A stretch of DNA of 22,386 bases from positions 1 to 22,386 of IMG/VR virus record IMGVR_UViG_3300034284_001433, one strand, 5' to 3'. The DNA comes from a virus. Position numbers and translations under genes: made by a program. Shown piece after piece: positions 2,926 through 21,633 of this stretch; position 1 is the first letter of the stretch; each line of letters begins with the position of its first letter. The notes beneath the pieces are model-generated. The model did not search any database and was not told where the DNA came from. It saw only the letters and a list, made by a program, of their open reading frames with translations.

Positions 2926-3864
2926 ATGTCAGATCAAAACCCACCCCACAAGGGCAAAAAAATTGTTATCCCTGGGCCTACAACGGCCCAACCTGCTGCG
3001 CCCAACGGCGGCACCCCACCTGGTCAACCAATGACTGGTGTGCCTGGTGCTGCTGAACAACGCCGTGTGCTGGACGAAATTGCCAAAGTTCAACAACAAC
3101 AAACTACTACACAACAACAAGGCACACCTTTTGATTTTTCAAAATGCCATTTACACATTGGTATTCCTTGCTACGGTGGTATGGTCAGTGAGCCTACAAT
3201 GACCAGTTTCCTACGCTTTGTGCTGTTAGCACAACAAGTTGGATTAAACTGGAGTTTGGACACAATGGTCAACGAAAGTTTGATTCCTCGTGGACGCAAC
3301 AACTTAATGGCCAAGATGATGACCAATCAAAGTGCCACGCATTTTATGTTCATTGACGCAGACATTCGCTTTCAGCCTGAAAGCATTTTGCAAATGATAG
3401 CCTATGACAAAGAAGTTATTGGCGGCTTGTATCCTAAGAAAAGCCTGCCTATCAACTATGTTATTAATTTGAAACCACAGGTTACTGTGCAAGGTGACAT
3501 CTACACTGTAGATACCATGGGCACTGGATTCTTGTTGTTCAAACGACAGGTATACGAGAAATTGATCAAGGCTCACCCAGAAACCAAATATGTAGACGAC
3601 ATCGGACTAGGCAAACAGTACGAACCCATGATGTACGCTATTTTTGATACTGAAATTGATCATCGTGGTCACTATTTGAGCGAAGACTGGACTTTCTGCC
3701 GTCGCTGGCAAGCACTAGGTGGCGACATCTGGGCACACAGCAAAACATTGTTGAATCATATTGGTCATTATGAATTCCAGGGCGACATTGCAAAACTGGA
3801 TATTAATACTATGGCTCAACAGGCCCACGCTCAGACCAATCCTACACCAAGTGAGCAACGATAG
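2926..3864 (+). CDS. GT-A fold glycosyltransferase (GT2-like)
   Basis: Likely transfers a sugar from an NDP-sugar; the acceptor is unknown. Residues 1-70 are low-complexity and rich in Pro, Gly and Gln, like a flexible linker. The GT-A domain begins with HIGIPCYGGMV (77-87). A metal-binding DAD (144-146, FIDADIRF) is the expected DXD motif. LSEDWTFCRRW (251-261) carries the ED pair usual for the GT2 catalytic base. A strong Shine-Dalgarno (AAAGAGGA) precedes the ATG. The 3' end overlaps the next gene by 14 nt. Phage enzymes of this kind decorate DNA, virion proteins or host glycans, and the sequence does not say which. GT-A identity is well supported; substrate is unknown. Confidence 0.85.
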   Translation: MSDQNPPHKGKKIVIPGPTTAQPAAPNGGTPPGQPMTGVPGAAEQRRVLDEIAKVQQQQTTTQQQGTPFDFSKCHLHIGIPCYGGMVSEPTMTSFLRFVLLAQQVGLNWSLDTMVNESLIPRGRNNLMAKMMTNQSATHFMFIDADIRFQPESILQMIAYDKEVIGGLYPKKSLPINYVINLKPQVTVQGDIYTVDTMGTGFLLFKRQVYEKLIKAHPETKYVDDIGLGKQYEPMMYAIFDTEIDHRGHYLSEDWTFCRRWQALGGDIWAHSKTLLNHIGHYEFQGDIAKLDINTMAQQAHAQTNPTPSEQR

Positions 3865-4416: not shown

Positions 4417-5586
4417 ATGTTTATTGCGCAACTGTTTGAAAATAAAGCCAAAAGGATTGTTGTAACATATCCTGGGCGTTTTCAGCCTTTTCATAAAGGG
4501 CACCGTGAAGTTTTTGCCAGTCTGCAACGCAAATTTGGCAGCGACAATGTTTTTATTATCACCAGTAATAACACTGACGGTGTAAAAAGTCCATTCAACT
4601 TCAGTGATAAAATACGCTTCATGCATGCCATGGGTGTTCCTGACAACCAGGTGATTGAAAGCAGCAATGTGTATAATTTGCCTGCTCAATTTGAACCAAT
4701 CAAAGATCAAGTAGTTTTTATTACCGCAGTAGGTCAACCAGACGAAAAAAGACTTCAACCAGGGCGTGTAAAAAAAGATGGTAGCCCAGGTTTTTTTCAA
4801 CCAGTACCCAATGACAGCAAAGATTTCAAAACAGCCGACGAGCACGGATATGTAATCATTGCACCCGAATATCCGCAAAGCATTAGCATAGGCGGTAAGA
4901 ATTACGACGCCAGTCACGGCACTCAAACTCGAGAACTGTGGAATCAGGTGCGTGACAACCCAGAACAACGCAAAGAATTTTTACAACAACTGTACGGGCG
5001 CACTGATCCAGAACTAGGACACATACTTGACAAAATTCCACATGGCGCCCTAGAACCTGTAGAGCCTCCCGCGGCTAAAATGAAAAATGCAAAAAAAGAT
5101 CTTGTGCAAGTGCCTGCTGTCAAGCCCAAAAAACTCAAAAAGGATACTGTGTCTGCTGATGATGCTCCATTGGCCGAAGACGAGTTTGATGAAGGCAGTT
5201 ATAAAAATCTGCATCTTAACTACAAGAAAAATAGATTCCGCTCATTGAAAAAACTTGACCCGTTTGCTGAAAGTGATGTAGAGGAAAGCATGTATCAATA
5301 TGATAAGGATGACCCTTACAACAGCGAATTTGCTCCTGATGTGGGCATGGGCAGAATGACTCTACGAAGTTGGAAGTTGAGCATGATTCGTCGAGTAAAA
5401 GAATTTGCAGCAGAGCTAGAACGCAATGGTCAAGATCTTGACAGAGCAGCGTTATGGGATCATATTCACAAAAAACTCAAAAGCATGAATCTTGATCCAA
5501 TAGCGCAAGAAATTGAATTGGCACATCAAGAGCTTGAAAACATCAGGCGTCGTGGTGGTGTAAGATCAAGGGCGTTCAAGAAATGA
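4417..5586 (+). CDS. Cytidylyltransferase-like nucleotidyltransferase with long charged tail
   Basis: The N-terminal half is a nucleotidyltransferase of the HxGH superfamily (NMN/pantetheine-phosphate adenylyltransferase relatives), which transfer a nucleotide from an NTP. GRFQPFHKGH (20-29) carries the HKGH signature after a beta strand (RIVVTYP), and SPFNFSDKIRFM (58-69) follows. Residues 1-8 (MFIAQLFE) form a short extension before the domain, closely like the start of the 119-aa protein at 6762. From about residue 215 the protein becomes lysine- and acid-rich (KKLKKD, AEDEFDEG), then ends in a helical region to residue 389. That tail is not part of the enzyme family. NAD salvage is possible but substrate is unproven. 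Its stop overlaps the next start (ATGA). Confidence 0.8.
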   Translation: MFIAQLFENKAKRIVVTYPGRFQPFHKGHREVFASLQRKFGSDNVFIITSNNTDGVKSPFNFSDKIRFMHAMGVPDNQVIESSNVYNLPAQFEPIKDQVVFITAVGQPDEKRLQPGRVKKDGSPGFFQPVPNDSKDFKTADEHGYVIIAPEYPQSISIGGKNYDASHGTQTRELWNQVRDNPEQRKEFLQQLYGRTDPELGHILDKIPHGALEPVEPPAAKMKNAKKDLVQVPAVKPKKLKKDTVSADDAPLAEDEFDEGSYKNLHLNYKKNRFRSLKKLDPFAESDVEESMYQYDKDDPYNSEFAPDVGMGRMTLRSWKLSMIRRVKEFAAELERNGQDLDRAALWDHIHKKLKSMNLDPIAQEIELAHQELENIRRRGGVRSRAFKK

Positions 5587-8186: not shown

Positions 8187-8624
8187 ATGGAACAACTACA
8201 CAAAGCATTAAAAATAGCTTTTGCAAGCGAGTTTAGCTTTTACCTAAAAGCTCACAACTATCACTGGAATGTGACAGGCCCGTTCTTTAGCCAACTGCAT
8301 GACTTGTTTGGAAAAATTTACGAAGAAGTGTATGGCAGCATTGATCATTTTGCAGAAGAAATTCGCAGTGCTGGGGCTTTTGTTCCTGCCAGCTACACTA
8401 GATTCAGTATGTTGAGTCAGATTGAAGATGAGACCAGTATCCCTGACGACGGCGACATGGTTGCAGAATTATTAGCCGATAGTGATAAAATGGTGAAAAT
8501 TTTGAAATATGTGTTTGATATTGCAACAGAACTAGGCGAAGAAGGTCTGGCAGATTTTGTTGCACAGCGCATGGATGCACATCGCAAACACTCCTGGATG
8601 TTGAGAGCAACAATCTCACAATGA
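8187..8624 (+). CDS. dps: Dps/ferritin-like protein
   Basis: Dps proteins form 12-subunit shells that oxidise and store iron and shield DNA. The signature HNYHWNVTGPFFSQLHDLF (23-41) and IDHFAEEIR (52-60) are clear, and the length of 145 aa suits the family. Aligned without gaps to E. coli Dps, ligands H51, H63, D78 and E82 correspond to H26, H38, D53 and E57. The position of D67 is Gly42, so one ferroxidase ligand is missing. There is no long Lys-rich N-terminal tail. A TAGGAT Shine-Dalgarno precedes the ATG, and the stop overlaps the next gene by 4 nt. A role in guarding phage or host DNA against oxidation is inferred. Confidence 0.88.
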   Translation: MEQLHKALKIAFASEFSFYLKAHNYHWNVTGPFFSQLHDLFGKIYEEVYGSIDHFAEEIRSAGAFVPASYTRFSMLSQIEDETSIPDDGDMVAELLADSDKMVKILKYVFDIATELGEEGLADFVAQRMDAHRKHSWMLRATISQ

Positions 8625-8941
8625 AAAAAACTTGTCCTAAACAAACCAGAACTCAGTGTGTCTGGTGGGAAGTTGCAGGCATAAGTTTGCTGGTGTTTCT
8701 TGCGGTGTATTCTATTGTGACACATGTGCCAGGATACACACTGAGCAAAGAATTGGTAATTGCAGCTGGGGCCAGTTTTTCTGTGCTTTGGTGTCTTTGG
8801 ATAGTGCGCACATTTAGAAATATAATGACCTGGTGGGTGGATCTTCAGCTAAGTATTGATCATGCTACCAAACTATTAGAAGAAACCAAACAAGACCTTA
8901 AAGAAATAAAATCGATCAAACATGAGTTTTCTAGTCGCTAA
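8621..8941 (+). CDS. Small membrane protein, two helices plus coiled-coil tail
   Basis: 106 aa. Two predicted membrane helices lie at about 16-38 (WEVAGISLLVFLAVYSIV) and 46-66 (VIAAGASFSVLWCLWIV). A charged helical tail follows (HATKLLEETKQDLKEIK), likely a coiled coil on the cytoplasmic side. Start overlaps the Dps stop (ATGA). Two helices with a charged tail would suit a holin-like or other inner-membrane phage protein, but no lysis enzyme is adjacent, so I do not call it a holin. Confidence 0.7.
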   Translation: MKKTCPKQTRTQCVWWEVAGISLLVFLAVYSIVTHVPGYTLSKELVIAAGASFSVLWCLWIVRTFRNIMTWWVDLQLSIDHATKLLEETKQDLKEIKSIKHEFSSR

Positions 8942-9583: not shown

Positions 9584-10288
9584 TTGATTGAAATACTATA
9601 CACTCTGATTGCAACACACATTACTATAGCCTGTGTGACACTGTATCTACATCGTAGTCAGGCACATCGTGGAGTGACATTTCATCCGGTGGTAGCACAT
9701 GCCATGCGTTTTTGGTTATGGCTTACCACAGGTATGGTTACCAAGCAGTGGGTGGCTATACATCGCAAACATCACCAACATTCTGATCATGCCGGTGATC
9801 CACATTCACCGCATGTGTTTGGTATTTTCAAAGTAGTAACACAAGGAGCATTGTTATATCATGCAGCGTCAAAAGATAAAGTCATGGTTAATTCATACGG
9901 TGCTGGTACTCCTGATGATTGGATTGAGCACAACTTATACAGTGCTCACTCCAGACTTGGCATTGGCATTCTCTTTTTGTTCAACATCATCGTCTTTGGT
10001 TGGGTTGGCGCCATAATATGGGGCATACAAATGTTGTGGATCCCATTCTGGGCCGCAGGTGTGATCAACGGCATCGGACATTGGTGGGGGTATCGTAATG
10101 GCACAACACGAGATCAATCTAGAAATATTGCTCCATGGGGTATTGTTATTGGCGGCGAAGAGCTGCACAATAATCACCATTTGGACCCTGCTAACCCAAA
10201 GCTATCGTTAAAGCCCTGGGAATTTGACATTGGTTGGTTTTATATACGCATATTACAACACATGCGACTTGCACACTTACGATCCTAA
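9584..10288 (+). CDS. Membrane fatty-acid desaturase
   Basis: Di-iron membrane desaturase that would introduce a double bond into acyl chains of host lipids. All three histidine boxes are present: HRSQAH (23-28), HRKHH (60-64) and HNNHH (195-199), plus the extra H166 in NGIGHWWGYRN, as in acyl-CoA or acyl-lipid delta-9 type enzymes. Membrane helices lie near 5-22, 38-52, 126-142 and 143-163. At 234 aa it is shorter than most bacterial members (about 270-380). The start is a TTG preceded by AGAGAGA, with no in-frame ATG upstream. Desaturase genes are known in cyanophages. The likely role is adjusting host membrane fluidity during infection (inference). Confidence 0.92.
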   Translation: MIEILYTLIATHITIACVTLYLHRSQAHRGVTFHPVVAHAMRFWLWLTTGMVTKQWVAIHRKHHQHSDHAGDPHSPHVFGIFKVVTQGALLYHAASKDKVMVNSYGAGTPDDWIEHNLYSAHSRLGIGILFLFNIIVFGWVGAIIWGIQMLWIPFWAAGVINGIGHWWGYRNGTTRDQSRNIAPWGIVIGGEELHNNHHLDPANPKLSLKPWEFDIGWFYIRILQHMRLAHLRS

Positions 10289-16358: not shown

Positions 16359-16711
16359 TAACCAGTCTTACAGGCACCGCTGGAGTGACAATATACGGAG
16401 GATTAAGTCCTCCGTATATTAACATGACACAGCCCAGCGCAGGTATGGTGCGCTACAATGGTTCCAGTCAGCTCATGGAGGTGTACGATGGTACTGTTTG
16501 GTTACAGATGGGAAGTCATCCTACCATACAACTGGATGCCCGTGTGCAAGAAATATTGTACTGGGCAGAAAAGAAAATGCGTGAGGATCAAGAACTAGAA
16601 AAGCGCATGGAGCAGCATCCGGGTCTTAGAGATGCCTATGAAAAATTCAAGGTAATGGATGTTCTCACACAAGAGAATGATAATAAAAAAGGAATCTATA
16701 CCCGTGCTTGA
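16355..16711 (+). CDS. Short virion-type protein with strong internal hairpin, 118 aa
   Basis: ATG at 16355 overlaps the clamp stop. The region GMVRYNGSSQLMEVYDGTVW (30-49) is a common phage structural motif (RYN, then EVYDG-W), seen in fibre and neck-type proteins. The second half is helical and charged (AEKKMREDQELEKRM), including an LDARVQEILYWAEKKM segment. An internal ATG at 16424, past the hairpin, is an alternative start. A 13-bp inverted repeat lies near the 5' end of the gene. A virion role is inferred from the motif only. Confidence 0.65.
   Translation: MITSLTGTAGVTIYGGLSPPYINMTQPSAGMVRYNGSSQLMEVYDGTVWLQMGSHPTIQLDARVQEILYWAEKKMREDQELEKRMEQHPGLRDAYEKFKVMDVLTQENDNKKGIYTRA
16390..16420 (+). 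repeat. 13-bp perfect inverted repeat inside coding sequence
   Basis: AATATACGGAGGA (16390-16402) and TCCTCCGTATATT (16408-16420) pair fully around a TTAAG loop. The left arm contains a perfect GGAGG. It starts 35 nt into the 118-aa gene and 32 nt past the clamp stop. There is no T-run after it, so it is not a standard intrinsic terminator. Confidence 0.8.
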
Positions 16712-18296
16712 ACAAGACAATCTAACTGCCAAGCAAAGCGACTATGCTGTGTTCTTGCCGGCTATTTCAGGATTCTATGCAACCTTTATAGGAAAACAGC
16801 GTGTTAACAATGACTATGTTGATCCTGCTCGTATGCCTGCGGGCATGCAGGACATGGAACAGATGAACTGGTTGAACAGCCAAAAAAGTTTGTTTCCTTA
16901 TCGGTGGAGTCTTTATTCAGGCGGTCACGCTAATCTCAATCTTGACAAGGATGATGCCAGCGAAGACATGGTTCGCAAGCGTGAGCCAGGTACATTCATG
17001 CTTGGTGACTCTGGTGGATTCCAGATTGCCAAAGGCCTATGGGAAGGTGACTGGAAGGCCAATTCGGGTTGTGCCAAAGCACAAAAGAAGCGAGACGCAA
17101 TTCTCAAATGGCTCGACGGTATCGCTGACTATGGCATGATCCTAGATATTCCAACCTGGGTCATTCACGACAAGAAGGCCAGTGCAGCCTGTCAGATTAC
17201 CACGCTGGAAGAAGCAGTAGACGCTACCAAGTTCAATAATGATTATTTCATGCAGCACAGAAAAGGCAAACGCAATGGTGGTGCCAAGTTCTTGAATGTG
17301 CTACAAGGTGACAATCATGCCAGTGCCGAAGAATGGTACCAGATCATGAAACACTACTGTGATCCTGTTCAGTATCCCGACACGCATTTTGACGGGTGGG
17401 CCATGGGCGGACAGAACATGTGTGATGTGCATCTTGTGCTCAGACGCTTGGTGGCTTTGCGACATGACAATTTACTACAAGAAGGTGTGCATGACTGGAT
17501 GCATTTCTTGGGTACCAGTAAACTTGAATGGGCACTGTTACTCACTGACATACAAAGAGCAATTAGAAAATATGTTAACCCTGCTTTTACCATTAGTTTC
17601 GATTGTGCAAGCCCGTTTCTTGCCACTGCCAACGGGCAGATGTATCATCAGATAGATTTGCCGCATAATGACAAATGGTGTTATCGCATGGGGCCCAGCG
17701 CAGACGATAAAAAGTATGCTCTGGACACCAGACCGTTCAAGGATGTGGTTCTAGCAGACAAGGTGTTCAATCACTTTGACGAAAGTCCTATCAGTCAACA
17801 TCTTCAGATCAAGGATGTGTGCATATACAAACCCGGCGATTTGAACAAAATTGGCAAGGAAGGCAAGACCTCATGGGACAGTTTCAGCTATGCACTCATG
17901 ATGGGTCATAATGTTTGGATGCACATTGAAGCTGTGCAGAGAGCCAATCGTGAATATGATTCAGGCACTTGGCCCAACATGCTGTGGAATCAAGGCACCA
18001 AAGGTCGTACTGGCGATCATGCAAAATTTAGAGACATTGTTGATGCTATATTTGCTACCAGTGACAAACAAGAAAGTTTAGACATTATCGAGCACTACAG
18101 TAGATATTGGATGGATATCATTGGCACTCGCGGTTTCAAAGGCGACAAAACCATGAATGCTCATAGTCAATTTAATTCACTGTTTGAATTTGTAGAACCA
18201 GAGGCTGAGGAGACCGAACGCGATGAGAAAATGGCAGAAGATGCAGCAGAAGATCGACTTGAACAACTTGCAAGAATCGAACGAGGAGGAGACTGA
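16704..18296 (+). CDS. dpdA: tRNA-guanine transglycosylase superfamily enzyme, likely DpdA-type DNA transglycosylase
   Basis: 530 aa from GTG 16704 (Shine-Dalgarno AAAAGGA); ATG 16677 and 16659 are other in-frame starts. TGT enzymes swap guanine for a 7-deazaguanine; DpdA homologs act on DNA. The active-site set is visible: GDSGGFQ (D102, acid/base), LDIP (D148, guanine recognition), VLQGD (Q201), GWAMGG (231-236), LGTSKLEW (269-276) and SFDCASP (D300, the nucleophile, matching FDCVxPTR in TGT). The CxCxxC zinc motif of tRNA-type TGT is not seen, and about 150-200 extra residues follow the barrel. Both points argue for DpdA over tRNA TGT. A QueD-like gene downstream supports this. An alternative is a divergent tRNA enzyme. 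Confidence 0.78.
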   Translation: MLEQDNLTAKQSDYAVFLPAISGFYATFIGKQRVNNDYVDPARMPAGMQDMEQMNWLNSQKSLFPYRWSLYSGGHANLNLDKDDASEDMVRKREPGTFMLGDSGGFQIAKGLWEGDWKANSGCAKAQKKRDAILKWLDGIADYGMILDIPTWVIHDKKASAACQITTLEEAVDATKFNNDYFMQHRKGKRNGGAKFLNVLQGDNHASAEEWYQIMKHYCDPVQYPDTHFDGWAMGGQNMCDVHLVLRRLVALRHDNLLQEGVHDWMHFLGTSKLEWALLLTDIQRAIRKYVNPAFTISFDCASPFLATANGQMYHQIDLPHNDKWCYRMGPSADDKKYALDTRPFKDVVLADKVFNHFDESPISQHLQIKDVCIYKPGDLNKIGKEGKTSWDSFSYALMMGHNVWMHIEAVQRANREYDSGTWPNMLWNQGTKGRTGDHAKFRDIVDAIFATSDKQESLDIIEHYSRYWMDIIGTRGFKGDKTMNAHSQFNSLFEFVEPEAEETERDEKMAEDAAEDRLEQLARIERGGD

Positions 18297-18297
18297 T

Positions 18298-18471
18298 ATG
18301 GAAAGCACCAGCAATCGAGTCCGTCATTTGGAAGAAATGCATAGAGTTTTGGACTTAAAAATAACAGAAATGCAACAGCATCCACATGTGGACGAACAAA
18401 AGGTTGCAGAATATAAGAAACAGAAGTTACAATACAAGGACGAAATTTCTAGACTTAGGTGTCAAGAATAG
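18298..18471 (+). CDS. DUF465/YdcH-like small coiled-coil protein, 57 aa
   Basis: The pattern HLEEMHRVLDLKI, then QHPHVDEQKVAEYKKQKLQYKDEISRL fits the YdcH/DUF465 family (H-x2-LD, variable hp, then KK-x-LxxKDEI). A start at ATG 18298 follows a GAGGAGGAG Shine-Dalgarno inside the end of the transglycosylase gene; an upstream in-frame ATG lies inside that gene. The function of this family is unknown; it is an antiparallel helical hairpin. Confidence 0.72.
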   Translation: MESTSNRVRHLEEMHRVLDLKITEMQQHPHVDEQKVAEYKKQKLQYKDEISRLRCQE

Positions 18472-18505
18472 AAACAACAACACAAACAATTGTCCGAGGA
18501 CTACA

Positions 18506-18829
18506 ATGATCACTAAAGGTTTTTACAAGTGGCTGGCCCAAAAAATTTCTTCTGCACAAGAGGACAACCAAGACGAGCTGCGGCATAATCTATCAAAGTT
18601 TGGACAAGGCATTCCGGCAGGGCATACCAGAGTGTATGATGAGGTGGATGCCACTTTGGATTTGCACTTCCGCATGAGCAAAGCCGAAAACGGTTATGTA
18701 ATGTCAGTTAGACACACTGATCGTAAAACTGAAAGATCAAATAATACACTGTATTTGATAGCAGATCATGAAGATCTTGGCCAAAGTATTTCTCATATAA
18801 TCACTGTTGAAAGTTTGAAAATCAAATGA
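18506..18829 (+). CDS. Hypothetical protein, 107 aa
   Basis: Starts at ATG 18506 with Shine-Dalgarno CGAGGA. The opening is helical, MITKGFYKWLAQKISSAQED. The rest is beta-rich (DATLDLHFRMSKAENGYVMSVRHTDRK, then NTLYLIADHEDLGQSISHIIT). Stop overlaps the next gene by 4 nt. Part of the run from the transglycosylase to the glycosyltransferase. No family recognised. Confidence 0.7.
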   Translation: MITKGFYKWLAQKISSAQEDNQDELRHNLSKFGQGIPAGHTRVYDEVDATLDLHFRMSKAENGYVMSVRHTDRKTERSNNTLYLIADHEDLGQSISHIITVESLKIK

Positions 18830-19341
18830 ATCGTCAAGGACATGAAACTGTGAAATTCTTTGTTGGCCAAGAAGTTGAGCACTCGCCTGCTTACGGCATG
18901 CGCACACTGTTTGTGATTGGTTTGCAAAACCCAACTGATATAATTGGATGGGCTCAGCAGTGTGAATGTCAGCACATCTATTTTGGTGCCAATCAAACTT
19001 TTCCCAATCCTGGCATCAATGACAGTGACACATGGCGACCTTGGGAAAACATGATCAAGGCTGCACTGGACTCTGGTGCATGGTGTACGCTGGATCTTGA
19101 TGTGAGTGCAGTCGAAGCCTTGCACGAAAGTGGCTTGTGCGAATATGCTAGATTCATTCCCATGATCAGTGTTAAACTGCCCTACATTAGTTTGCTCAAT
19201 TACAATACCACAATTAAACTAGATGACCGAGACTTTGAATCAACCAACCCTGGCGTGTGGTGCCATAGTCTACATGATTTGAAAAATCGTGCAGTGTTCA
19301 CTGACTGGTCTAAATATTCTCAAGATGAGGTGATAACATGA
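18826..19341 (+). CDS. Conserved-looking hypothetical protein, 171 aa
   Basis: Compact alpha/beta protein rich in Trp and Cys (GWAQQCECQHIYFG, SGAWCTLDLDVSAVEALHESG, FIPMISVKLPYI, NPGVWCHSLHDL, FTDWSKY). The strands ending in CTLDLDV and FIPMISVKLP look like barrel or Rossmann-type strands, with His/Cys near the end. No radical-SAM CxxxCxxC motif is present. It sits between the DpdA-like enzyme and the QueD-like protein with ATGA coupling on both sides, so a shared pathway is possible. I cannot name the family. Confidence 0.72.
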   Translation: MNRQGHETVKFFVGQEVEHSPAYGMRTLFVIGLQNPTDIIGWAQQCECQHIYFGANQTFPNPGINDSDTWRPWENMIKAALDSGAWCTLDLDVSAVEALHESGLCEYARFIPMISVKLPYISLLNYNTTIKLDDRDFESTNPGVWCHSLHDLKNRAVFTDWSKYSQDEVIT

Positions 19342-19541
19342 AAGAGTTTTTAATAAGAGACGAACCTGCATTTAGATTAAAAGGGCGAATGAGCCAGTGT
19401 CTAAGCCCGGAGAATCTTTGGTGCGTGGAATTCACTGGGCAAAGTCTAAATGACAAAGGTGAAGTGGTTAATAATAGTACCTATCAGTTTTTCCTTGAGG
19501 ACGCACATATACAAAACATGGTAAAAGGATTACTGTCATGA
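19338..19541 (+). CDS. Small hypothetical protein, 67 aa
   Basis: ATGA-coupled to the 171-aa gene. Sequence MKEFLIRDEPAFRLKGRMSQ then NLWCVEFTGQSLNDKGEVV and STYQFFLEDAHIQN suggests a small beta-rich domain. No signal, membrane or metal motif. Its stop overlaps the next start. Confidence 0.62.
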   Translation: MKEFLIRDEPAFRLKGRMSQCLSPENLWCVEFTGQSLNDKGEVVNNSTYQFFLEDAHIQNMVKGLLS

Positions 19542-19690
19542 CCTGCGAAACCTGTGGCAAAGACTACTCCCCAGCCTGTGACTTTCAGCAAGGTCGCTGT
19601 CCGTTGCATCCACCCATGTGGAACTTGACACCATATCATTTTCGCTATCTCACACTTGTCAACACTATCAAAGGTTGGTTTCGCTCATGA
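19538..19690 (+). CDS. Small zinc-finger-like protein, 50 aa
   Basis: Short ORF starting MTCETCGKDYSPACDF. C3, C6, C14, C21 and H24 (CxxC, x7, C, x6, CxxH) make a likely zinc-binding knot, and the C-terminal half (TPYHFRYLTLVNTIKGWFRS) is basic and helical. ATGA overlaps at both ends place it firmly in the run. A nucleic-acid or protein-contact role is inferred. Confidence 0.65.
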   Translation: MTCETCGKDYSPACDFQQGRCPLHPPMWNLTPYHFRYLTLVNTIKGWFRS

Positions 19691-20127
19691 ATACACAAAT
19701 GGACAGATCACAAACAGACATAAACAGTGAAGTTGCAGATCGCATGATATGGGTGCGTTTTGAAAAAGAGGGTATTCATAAATATCCAGCAGCACTGGAG
19801 GATCCTAAACTTGCGGATGTATCTTTTCTTGGCTTTCCTCATCGCCATATTTTTCACTTCCGGGTGTCAATCAGTGTGTTCCATAATGACAGGGACATCG
19901 AATTCATCCAGTTCAAACGATGGCTGGAGAGTCTGTATAGCGATTCCACTCTAGAACTCAATTATAAATCCTGCGAGATGATTGCAGACGACTTATATAT
20001 CCAAATTAACTTGCGTTACCCCGGCAGGCATGTTATTATCTCAGTTAGCGAAGACGACGAAAACGGTTGCGAAATTGTTTATCGAGATCCCCGCACCCCA
20101 GAAAAAACTTTTTACCATCCAGTATAA
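19687..20127 (+). CDS. QueD/6-pyruvoyl-tetrahydropterin synthase-like (T-fold) protein, divergent
   Basis: 146 aa from ATG 19687, which overlaps the previous stop. E. coli QueD makes 6-carboxy-tetrahydropterin, a precursor of 7-deazaguanines. Matches to QueD: KEGIHKY (H31) for FEAAHRL, FPHRHIFHFRVSI (H52, H54) for LHGHSFMVRLEI, RDIEFIQFKRWL for WIIDFAELKAAF, KSCEMIADDLY for PTSEVLAKWIW, and ISVSEDDENGCEIVY for VMVKETCTAGCIY. The three zinc His are therefore present. Absent are the usual catalytic Cys before HGH and a clear LDH catalytic pair (only LELN remains), so chemistry may be altered. Position downstream of the transglycosylase fits a 7-deazaguanine role. Identification is by motif, with no alignment search. 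Confidence 0.6.
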   Translation: MNTQMDRSQTDINSEVADRMIWVRFEKEGIHKYPAALEDPKLADVSFLGFPHRHIFHFRVSISVFHNDRDIEFIQFKRWLESLYSDSTLELNYKSCEMIADDLYIQINLRYPGRHVIISVSEDDENGCEIVYRDPRTPEKTFYHPV

Positions 20128-20141
20128 TAGGAGAAATCAAG

Positions 20142-20450
20142 ATGGCGCACCCAAAGTGGCTTACCAAATACTTTGTTATGAAGTCCGAAGTTAATCAAAT
20201 CTATGATGACTTAGAAAAATATCGTGAGTTCTGTGTTTCACACGGTCGTGTGTTCAATGAAGCGGCACTGTACAATGAACGCGACAGAGATTTTTCTGAT
20301 TTCATGCGTTTCAAAGAACGAGGATATAGCAAGAATCATTGGAACTGGGCCAACAAAGATCCTAACGAACAGCGTAAACCCTTCAACAAAGACAACCGAG
20401 GCCCTCGTGGTTTTAACAACTATCGCTCAGGATACAATCGCAATGCGTAA
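20142..20450 (+). CDS. Charged hypothetical protein, 102 aa
   Basis: Starts ATG 20142 with an ideal Shine-Dalgarno (AATAGGAG, about 8 nt before). The N-terminal part is helical (KSEVNQIYDDLEKYREF), and the C-terminal third is Arg/Asn-rich and probably disordered (EQRKPFNKDNRGPRGFNNYR). Basic, so possibly nucleic-acid binding. It overlaps the glycosyltransferase gene by 8 nt. Longer upstream ORF codons lie inside the QueD-like gene. Confidence 0.7.
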   Translation: MAHPKWLTKYFVMKSEVNQIYDDLEKYREFCVSHGRVFNEAALYNERDRDFSDFMRFKERGYSKNHWNWANKDPNEQRKPFNKDNRGPRGFNNYRSGYNRNA

Positions 20451-21633
20451 GTTATACTACATGGGTCTTGAAAGTTACAAAGCTCGGTACACACTACAGC
20501 TAACAGAATGGAATCGTCGTGTGTTCGAACGACGCGGACTTGATGTTAGTTATGTACCAGGACTTACTCTGGACAATGGAGAAAAGATTGTGGTTGGTCA
20601 GGTGCTGGATGCACATGGTCGCACATACTTTGGCATGAGCCAGCTGATGAATCTAGTTAGACTAATGCAGCAAGGAGAAGTAACCAGTGAAGATGTTATC
20701 TACTTTGAAGACATGTTTCAGCCCGGTATTGAGAGCTTACCTTATATTCTCAATCAAGTGCCTGCTAATCTGCGTCCTCGCATTTTTGTCCGTTGTCTTG
20801 CTCAAGCCATTGATCCTGATGACTTCGTACATGTATGGGGCATGTCTAAGTGGATGGGCTTGTATGAAAAAATGGTATGCGAACTTGTCCGGGACTCAGG
20901 AGGCGCAGTACTAGCCACCAATGAAGAAATGGTCATGCACATGAAGATTGCAGGATGGGATTGTCCTATCTACAACATTTCAGGCCTGGCCTTTGGCAAG
21001 GATGAAGTGCGTGAGCGTGTACCTGGCGAACTCAAACCATTCCTTGAACGCAGTATGCGTGTGGGCTTTGCAGCTCGCTGGGATCAAGAGAAACAGCCCA
21101 ACTTTTACATGGACTTGATTGAACTCTACCATGAGCGCAATCCCGGCAACACAGTAGAGTTTGCTGTGTTCTCTGGTGCGCCATTGCGTACCAACAATGA
21201 CAGCTACATGGCTCGTACACGACAAATGCAAGCCGAAGGCAAACTGACAATCTATGAAGATCTAGAAAAGAACGACTACTATGCTCTTCTTGCTGACACT
21301 CGGGTGTTGTTCAATTGTGCTTTACAAGACTGGGTTTCTAACACAGTGAGCGAAGCAGATACTCTTGGTTGCAATGTACTTTATCCTGCTTACCGTAGTT
21401 TCCCCGAGTCCTTTGGCAATGATCACACTAGATTGTATGTGCCTTGGTCATTGAAAGACGCTTGTAAGAAACTGGAGAAACTTTTGTACCTGGAAAGTTC
21501 TCGTATGGGCAAGATCAGTGACTGGACCAATGGCACTGTAGATCGTATTGTCGACATCATCGAAGGCCAAGGCGAGCAATGGTTGCGCATGAGTACAGAC
21601 TATCGTAAACACACTCACGAAAGTAAATTCTAA
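20443..21633 (+). CDS. GT-B fold glycosyltransferase
   Basis: 396 aa from ATG 20443; the ORF upstream of this is in the preceding gene. The N-terminal Rossmann half opens LYYMGLESYKARYTLQLTEWN. The C-terminal half starts MRVGFAARWDQEK (205-217), and then TVSEADTLGCNVLYPAYRSFPE (301-322) carries the acidic EX-rich donor-binding motif of GT4-type enzymes, with E304 and E322. It would transfer a sugar from an NDP-sugar to an unknown acceptor. Lying after the DpdA-like/QueD-like genes, it could modify phage DNA, as T4 glucosyltransferases do. Virion or host glycan targets are equally open. GT-B identity is solid; target is inference. Confidence 0.82.
   Translation: MRKLYYMGLESYKARYTLQLTEWNRRVFERRGLDVSYVPGLTLDNGEKIVVGQVLDAHGRTYFGMSQLMNLVRLMQQGEVTSEDVIYFEDMFQPGIESLPYILNQVPANLRPRIFVRCLAQAIDPDDFVHVWGMSKWMGLYEKMVCELVRDSGGAVLATNEEMVMHMKIAGWDCPIYNISGLAFGKDEVRERVPGELKPFLERSMRVGFAARWDQEKQPNFYMDLIELYHERNPGNTVEFAVFSGAPLRTNNDSYMARTRQMQAEGKLTIYEDLEKNDYYALLADTRVLFNCALQDWVSNTVSEADTLGCNVLYPAYRSFPESFGNDHTRLYVPWSLKDACKKLEKLLYLESSRMGKISDWTNGTVDRIVDIIEGQGEQWLRMSTDYRKHTHESKF

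Follow-up and report, generated by a model that had tools for sequence, protein, structure and literature searches.

Results

A DpdA-type gene cluster in a viral record

We analyzed the IMG/VR virus record IMGVR_UViG_3300034284_001433, taken whole at 22,386 bases and called the window below. Between positions 16704 and 21633 it carries a gene cluster built around a DpdA-like enzyme of the tRNA-guanine transglycosylase (TGT) superfamily, accompanied by a small T-fold protein, a conserved accessory protein, and a glycosyltransferase (GT)-like protein. The four genes that concern us most are the following:

16704..18296, + strand: DpdA-like (TGT-superfamily) transglycosylase, 530 aa, named on its fold, a profile match to DpdA2, and its catalytic Asp residues
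18826..19341, + strand: conserved accessory protein, 171 aa, present in 46 of 46 near and 43 of 44 far loci
19687..20127, + strand: small PTPS/T-fold-like protein, 146 aa, a member of phrog_17812 (E = 7.8e-36)
20443..21633, + strand: GT-B-like glycosyltransferase, 396 aa, named on homology to a protein of phage BUCT-ZZ01

A first-pass annotation had described a TGT-superfamily gene followed by six packed open reading frames (ORFs), the last one QueD-like, and had read the range 16704-20127 as a DpdA-type module for 7-deazaguanine-type bases such as preQ0. The genes and coordinates are as it gave them. The reading itself is partly supported: it named the right kind of module, is open to doubt as to QueD and preQ0, and left a part out, since the range stopped short of the GT-like gene, which accompanies the module in 69 of 70 loci.

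From base 8704, the start of a locus we call L001, to its end, the window shares 99.96% identity with L001, which belongs to a 144-kb contig from this virus. That contig continues beyond the window, whose end falls at about contig base 124,028, and reveals what comes after it. A further locus in the window's own virus, L181, starts at contig base 119,900. Locus counts were made by tblastn, accepting a match anywhere in a locus, and were confined to loci that reach at least 4 kb past the DpdA-like gene on its downstream side (46 of 80 near and 44 of 82 far loci); these loci are not independent samples. Pathway genes were counted in 13 large contigs, this virus among them, all of which are fragments.

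The DpdA-like protein has a predicted TGT fold and invariant catalytic residues

The gene at 16704-18296 starts with GTG; an in-frame ATG at 16659 would give a protein of 545 aa. The protein matched nothing in Pfam or PHROGs at E ≤ 1. We aligned 62 family members including the window protein, with relatives 31 to 85% identical to it, and used these sequences to predict its structure (predicted local distance difference test score, 86.4; predicted template modeling score, 0.87). When this model was compared with the PDB by Foldseek, all six matches at E ≤ 1e-3 were TGTs, the best at 2.4e-7. VIA gave a Z score of 17.7 and a root mean square deviation of 5.4 over 324 aligned residues, and the best 50 rows listed were all TGTs. 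The similarity of the model to TGT is thus far above chance. Among viral models the best match was to an unnamed entry as long as the protein of Vibrio phage 2.275.O, 596 aa (1.5e-27); further down were the TGT of Achromobacter Motura (9e-11) and a 464-aa protein of phage nt-1, the length of its DpdA2 (1.8e-9).

The residues proposed for catalysis and recognition largely held up. D102, D148, G231, and D300 are each conserved in 62/62 members, and the catalytic Asp residues are unchanged down to 31% identity. The exception is position 201, where Gln is found in 53/62 and Ser in 9/62. The roles of D300, D102, and D148 were assigned by motif order, following the known TGT numbering. Covalent base exchange of the TGT type would follow from the predicted fold and these residues.

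The three-Cys zinc cluster of tRNA-type enzymes is absent from the 62-member alignment, as had been claimed: after residue 300, Cys is found in at least 80% of members only at positions 301 (53/62) and 373 (51/62). H402 and H407 are present in all 62. By residue numbering, C373 and H402 may correspond to two of the four residues that bind zinc in Zymomonas TGT, in which case the site would be a degraded one and not wholly absent. PF01702, the tRNA-type TGT family, matched none of the 62 members at E ≤ 0.1 and nothing in the window, and PDB sequence searches with the family profiles retrieved no TGT. The kinship to TGT is visible in the predicted fold and in the profile match to DpdA2.

These data bear on the possibility that the enzyme is a viral TGT that modifies tRNA and so alters translation and not DNA. 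The fold is indeed that of TGT. The missing three-Cys cluster and the lack of any Pfam TGT match among the 62 members argue against a tRNA substrate, as does the profile kinship to DpdA2, the enzyme of nt-1, a phage whose DNA contains dPreQ0 (PMC6884629). We regard a tRNA target as very unlikely.

The family forms a branch of its own within phage DpdA

Aligned by hhalign with four DpdA2 proteins, the family profile gave an E value of 2.5e-6 and brought the catalytic motifs into register; with the ACP17 DpdA2 alone it gave 2.6e-7. The A2 profile of the DpdA-like family also found the ACP17 protein, at 5.3e-6; the DpdA2 proteins of nt-1, X1, and BUCT-ZZ01 were not found with it. The remote DpdA2 match, together with the lack of PF01702 and of an intact three-Cys site, agrees with the assignment to DpdA made from the sequence.

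The two families share a TGT-type fold and the DSGG, DxP, QG, LG, and SxD motifs in register, and a FolE gene lies near DpdA2 in nt-1, ACP17, X1, and BUCT-ZZ01 as well. They differ in that the window protein is 66 aa longer than the nt-1 protein, and nt-1 has QueC whereas phages with the window-type module mostly lack it. DpdA2 corresponds to phrog_10773 (nt-1, X1, ACP17, and BUCT-ZZ01), but the window protein and its relatives in PA5oct, Phosso, and 2.275.O matched neither this nor any other PHROG. In Enterobacteria phage 9g, DpdA1 carries the annotation queuosine tRNA-ribosyltransferase and likewise lies beside synthesis genes (FolE, QueD, and QueC); it differs in its length of 317 aa and showed no meaningful match to the window family (hhalign E = 0.39 over 21 columns). 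PADLOC gave no meaningful match for the window proteins, the DpdA-like one included, and none for the 9g DpdA either. PMC6884629 defines DpdA and DpdA2, reports dPreQ0 in nt-1 DNA, and states that the 9g DpdA works with Gat-QueC.

A tblastn search of the phage collection with the window protein found 13 records, all labeled hypothetical: 11 PA5oct-type Pseudomonas phages (34.5% identity), Sinorhizobium phage Phosso (30%), and Vibrio phage 2.275.O (30.5% over 42% of the query). PA5oct is stated to have a deazaguanine synthesis and incorporation system in a 2021 jumbo-phage survey (PMC7824862). IMG/VR held at least 599 candidate stretches, at least 598 of which were confirmed to encode DpdA-like relatives; viral contigs searched with the PA5oct and Vibrio proteins yielded no relatives. 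The profile also matched Campylobacter phage CP220 (E = 0.0099), in a possible scaffold protein gene, and we discarded this match as chance. CP220, a fully modified phage, thus gave no credible DpdA-like match.

The profile match to DpdA2, the absence from every PHROG family, and the abundance of relatives show that the protein encoded at 16704-18296 belongs to a separate, abundant phage DpdA branch by its sequence, set apart from DpdA2 and from the 9g DpdA. DpdA3 and DpdA4 were reportedly described by Cui et al. in 2023, and one of them could be the same as the window family. A family this abundant in IMG/VR is represented here by a protein absent from both Pfam and PHROGs.

A third TGT-like type lies near the T-fold gene at L168:14795-15574, L166:16092-17360, L177:9420-10292, and L179:9683-10540 (phages phiST, RHph_I1_18, Ahp1, and D479). 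By eye, its motifs are DNSGFE, LPDYP, VPQS, HFLG, and SWDTSS. These four phages have no tblastn match to the window DpdA-like family and no GT gene.

Relatives were also seen in bacterial genomes. At 8 of 20 such loci (L195, L199, L193, L196, L197, L201, L202, and L205), an unnamed gene lies just upstream of the DpdA-like relative. The DpdA-like protein and its partner measure 463 and 561 aa in L195:3712-7383 and 445 and 554 aa in L199:4340-7344, and neither pair had a meaningful PADLOC or Pfam match. In L199 (Polynucleobacter), a cytosine methylase gene and a type II restriction endonuclease-like gene stand beside the cassette. This two-gene cassette could be an undescribed modification or defense system. 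L207:4061-7233 (Novosphingobium) and L200:1832-3580 (Rhizobiales) keep the gene order with another upstream partner (592 aa in L207; the two partners are 27% identical). Three loci binned in bacterial metagenome-assembled genomes, L189, L190, and L192, carry T-fold and GT genes, and L190 and L192 also carry the 171-aa gene; they are probably phage contigs.

7-Deazaguanine synthesis genes accompany the module, mostly without QueC

FolE, QueD, and QueE making 7-carboxy-7-deazaguanine (CDG) is established biochemistry, as summarized in PMC13329287. FolE (PF01227) was present in 13/13 large contigs and a PTPS-family gene (PF01242) in 12/13. QueC (PF06508), in contrast, was found in 1/13, weakly, passing the cut-off only when neighboring pieces were included. 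In the window's own virus, FolE lies at L181:5805-6572, about 1.7 kb past the window end (Pfam E = 1.3e-39), and the PTPS gene at L181:9780-10325, about 5.7 kb past it (5.7e-15; the NCBIfam QueD model gave 1.1e-7, under its cut-off). A QueE-like ORF follows at L181:11646-12539, about 7.5 kb past the window end, with a Pfam radical SAM match of only 0.005; the radical-SAM search of the 13 contigs missed it. A radical-SAM match next to the PTPS gene was above the cut-off in contigs G007 and G012 and below it in G003. QueE is annotated in PA5oct and Phosso, named phages with the same DpdA-like gene. Like other phage DpdA genes, that of the window is therefore encoded with 7-deazaguanine synthesis genes, namely FolE, PTPS, and the QueE-like ORF, the last one below cut-offs. 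The first-pass annotation had suggested looking for folE, queE, and queC elsewhere in the genome; folE is there, queE is probably there, and queC was not seen in this virus. Because QueC was weak and confined to one of the 13 contigs, preQ0 as the base is not supported.

By eye, the QueE-like ORF has a CxxxC motif and then an insert before the next Cys, an unusual spacing of the cluster. A xanthine/guanine-type phosphoribosyltransferase gene lies between FolE and the PTPS gene (L181:8457-9026) or beside QueE (L171:5456-5917), and PF00156 was above the cut-off in 7/13 contigs and 3/8 named phages. It could salvage the guanine released by DpdA.

Vibrio phage 2.275.O has its DpdA-like gene near QueC, QueF-like, FolE, and transporter genes. 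This combination indicates that the DpdA-like family is not tied to one base.

FolE and PTPS can serve pterin pathways, and one could picture a repurposed gene set that supplies pterin- or folate-type cofactors while the TGT-like protein is inactive. The catalytic Asp residues, invariant down to 31% identity, and the QueE or QueE-like genes that accompany the DpdA-like gene make this highly improbable.

A small T-fold protein stands where QueC is mostly missing

The protein encoded at 19687-20127 had been read as QueD-like. Aligned with six phage PTPS proteins by hhalign, it gave an E value of 3e-6. A PDB sequence search returned two matches, the better being the PTPS-family protein PH0634, in register over the HxH motif. 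Among 33 aligned sequences, H31, H52, H54, S95, E97, and E122 are invariant. The protein thus keeps the three zinc His residues of QueD/PTPS (PF01242) and two Glu residues, one from the Cys-Glu helix and one near the C terminus. It differs from them in the rest of the active site: L48, four residues before H52 and at the position of the QueD catalytic Cys, is Leu in all 33, and the Asp-His pair of QueD has no counterpart in any of these sequences. It is also shorter than the PTPS protein of this virus, at 146 versus 181 aa. The zinc ligands of the QueD proposal stand, then, and the catalytic Cys and Asp-His pair do not; on these residues we rejected a self-sufficient QueD.

The T-fold gene was found in 46/46 near and 43/44 far loci and, by profile, in 13/13 large contigs and 7/8 named phages, 2.275.O being the exception. 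By tblastn it was present in 26 phage records, nt-1 and 9g not among them. Among named genomes, QueC exceeded the cut-off in 1 of the 11 that carry the T-fold gene versus all 3 that do not (2.275.O, nt-1, and 9g), a split with a Fisher P of 0.011 for which the controls were hand-picked. The sole QueC in a genome with the T-fold gene, that of D479, is a partial 33-bit match, and X1 has a 16-bit match below the cut-off. The natural reading of a gene present where QueC is mostly missing is that it acts at QueC's place, and most likely the T-fold protein processes CDG, as its gene distribution suggests. DpdL was reportedly predicted to be a CDG decarboxylase by Cui et al. in 2023, which fits a QueC-less pathway; the T-fold protein may correspond to DpdL.

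The same exchange in DNA could also run through the host, with host QueC turning phage CDG into preQ0, the DNA bearing dPreQ0 or dADG, and the T-fold protein doing something else. The use of QueC by 2.275.O together with the same DpdA-like family would fit this, as would the full queuosine pathway that hosts of DpdA2 phages carry (PMC6884629). Against it stands the T-fold gene, found where QueC is mostly missing and in 13/13 large contigs, and we consider this route unlikely.

The PTPS protein is a mirror image of the T-fold protein

The other PTPS gene of this virus can be rejected as a true QueD, as two of three zinc His residues are lost. We compared PTPS residues in the order first zinc His, Cys, and last two zinc His. 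In 9g and 2.275.O, which have no T-fold gene, the set is His-Cys-His-His. In 12/12 window-type contigs with a PTPS gene, it is Phe/Tyr-Cys-His-Tyr, with the Cys and the Asp-His pair kept and two zinc His lost, and the same is true of Phosso, BUCT-ZZ01, ACP17, X1, MA9V-3, and phiST. PTPS of RHph and one of two PA5oct copies have His-Cys-His-Tyr. The exceptions to the mirror pattern are Bakedbeans, with a T-fold gene and a full-set PTPS, and the second PA5oct copy, also a full set. In D479 the T-fold gene is present, but no PTPS was matched at E ≤ 0.001; overall, PF01242 was above the cut-off in 10/11 named genomes carrying the T-fold gene. Ahp1, whose PTPS-like ORF was not recovered, and nt-1, whose PTPS did not align, were left out of the comparison. 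The residue patterns are opposite, meaning that the T-fold protein holds what the PTPS protein lost and vice versa. To judge by these residues, each may be half of a single enzyme, or they may be separate enzymes that act in succession.

If they are halves, the T-fold protein would give the zinc His and PTPS the Cys and Asp-His pair of a split QueD, and CDG would be made as usual with no separate T-fold step. PTPS active sites sit at subunit interfaces, and both the mirror-image residues (12/12 window-type contigs, Phosso, BUCT-ZZ01, ACP17, X1, MA9V-3, and phiST) and the full His-Cys-His-His set kept by 9g and 2.275.O agree with a split. However, Bakedbeans combines the T-fold gene with a full-set PTPS, PA5oct has full-set and His-Cys-His-Tyr copies, RHph has His-Cys-His-Tyr, and D479 has no PTPS to pair with. 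Furthermore, known PTPS enzymes carry the Cys and the zinc His in one subunit, and the split would leave the lack of QueC unexplained. We think a split QueD quite unlikely.

Two PTPS-family genes of PA5oct (L185:707-1225 and 3002-3472) lie beside a FolE-like ORF, by eye, and in Vibrio phage Bakedbeans (L178:8212-9363) the T-fold domain forms the rear part of a fusion protein, after some 260 residues that belong to a different domain.

A GT-like gene recurs beside DpdA or T-fold genes

The protein encoded at 20443-21633 had no Pfam match and no meaningful PHROG match. It is 61% identical to a protein of BUCT-ZZ01 that lies narrowly above the cut-off of the glycosyltransferase model PF13692 (28.3 versus 27 bits). 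With six queries, and in loci with at least 6 kb downstream, the GT gene was found within 9 kb in 34/34 near and 35/36 far loci, L084 being the exception. Conservation inside the clade says little, so the recurrence of the gene in other phages carries the weight. GT homologues lie beside DpdA or T-fold genes in PA5oct, ACP17, X1, BUCT-ZZ01, and Phosso; those of PA5oct, ACP17, X1, and Phosso are 20 to 23% identical and directly adjoin one of the two genes. The T-fold and GT genes of Phosso lie next to each other, some 170 kb away from the DpdA-like gene, an arrangement that speaks for a functional pair. The GT profile matched 5/15 named phages; it was built from those five, so its informative part is the absence from the other 10. 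RHph, phiST, Ahp1, Bakedbeans, D479, and MA9V-3 have the T-fold gene without GT, and GT is for this reason an add-on. The GT-like protein may glycosylate the modified base, as its homology and gene neighborhoods suggest. A literature search on deazaguanine, glycosyltransferase, and phage DNA found no glycosylated deazaguanine in the titles or abstract openings of the papers listed, which is no proof of absence.

A candidate pathway for exchange of guanine in phage DNA

The fold, catalytic residues, gene content, and recurrence of the module would fit the following pathway. FolE, the PTPS-family protein, and the QueE-like protein, encoded past the window in the same virus, would convert GTP into CDG. 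With no QueC, CDG would not be converted to preQ0. The T-fold protein (19687-20127) would most likely process CDG, decarboxylating it to 7-deazaguanine in the way reportedly predicted for DpdL, and the DpdA-like enzyme, with D300 as the nucleophile and D102 as the acid/base, would swap guanine in the phage DNA for that base. The 171-aa protein would serve as a conserved helper, and the GT-like protein could glycosylate the product. Taken together, guanine exchange in DNA with a QueC-less 7-deazaguanine, the T-fold protein acting on CDG and GT possibly glycosylating, has about an even chance of being correct. Support falls from DNA as the target to T-fold action on CDG and from there to glycosylation; we infer the identity of the base and the roles of the T-fold, PTPS, 171-aa, and GT proteins as well. 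The modification might let the phage escape restriction, as the first-pass annotation had supposed.

Several points weigh against this pathway. In hhalign comparisons with single DpdA2 proteins, the family gave only 0.04 for nt-1, 0.0054 for X1, and 0.25, out of register, for BUCT-ZZ01. The kinship of the T-fold protein to PTPS rests on the hhalign E value of 3e-6, and its top PDB match reached only 0.33. NCBIfam QueE models cover only residues 2 to 36 of the QueE-like ORF, at best 5.7e-12 and below cut-offs; with a PTPS that lacks two zinc His and a QueE match limited to the first 36 residues, CDG synthesis is uncertain. A QueC gene may lie outside the large contigs, which are fragments, and hosts may supply it. 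Phage 2.275.O pairs the DpdA-like family with QueC and has no T-fold gene. Finally, a DNA polymerase gene (21/21) and a 242-aa gene (26/27), with no tie to the pathway, are equally conserved. Since unrelated neighbors are equally conserved and the loci are not independent, synteny inside the clade is weak evidence.

It is a possibility, though a doubtful one, that all this amounts to an undescribed DNA base, in which a QueC-less 7-deazaguanine from CDG, a new DpdA family, GT-B-like glycosylation, the 171-aa helper, and the mirror-image PTPS pair come together. The module suggests that DNA guanine modification has a branch that does without QueC. If real, the candidate glycosylation step would yield a hypermodified guanine of a new kind, and a glycosylated 7-deazaguanine would be the guanine counterpart of the glucosylated cytosine of T4. 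Unnamed phage genes (phrog_17812, the 171-aa protein, and GT) would be tied to one pathway. The question is directly testable, since sequenced isolates with module genes exist: PA5oct, Phosso, ACP17, and BUCT-ZZ01.

Accessory ORFs between and beside the main genes

The remaining ORFs of the cluster are listed below:

18298..18471, + strand: 57-aa DUF465-like ORF directly after the DpdA-like gene (PF04325, E = 6.5e-10); 15/46 near and 14/44 far loci
18506..18829, + strand: 107-aa ORF, variable; 7/46 near and 16/44 far loci
19338..19541, + strand: 67-aa ORF, variable; 3/46 near and 11/44 far loci
19538..19690, + strand: 50-aa ORF, variable; 3/46 near and 11/44 far loci
20142..20450, + strand: 102-aa ORF, variable, between the T-fold and GT genes; 31/46 near and 11/44 far loci

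The 107-, 171-, 67-, and 50-aa genes had been put forward as new accessory parts. Only the 171-aa gene (89/90 loci) qualifies; for their poor conservation we rejected the 107-, 67-, and 50-aa ORFs as core parts. Both the 57-aa and the 107-aa ORFs probably lie outside the module core.

Relatives of the 171-aa protein in the phage collection were limited to 11 PA5oct-type records and two ACP17 records, and its profile matched 2/15 named phages. In PA5oct some 30 kb separate this gene from the DpdA-like one; in ACP17 it lies between FolE and DpdA2. Its predicted model is of good quality (predicted local distance difference test score, 90.7), and Foldseek found nothing in the PDB at E ≤ 1e-3; plasmid records gave no match to the protein at E ≤ 1e-3. 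We considered a degraded QueE and rejected it: hhalign with phage QueE gave an E value of 0.2, and in VIA two QueE structures reached Z scores of 6.1 and 6.0 (126 and 130 aligned residues). Stressosome proteins of the RsbS type headed the VIA list at 7.1, and all these values are below the noise level of 8; we left the protein unassigned.

Elsewhere in the window are a ClpA/B-like gene (2-1984), a cytidylyltransferase-like gene (4417-5586), a ferritin/Dps-like gene (8187-8624), and a fatty-acid-desaturase-like gene (9584-10288).

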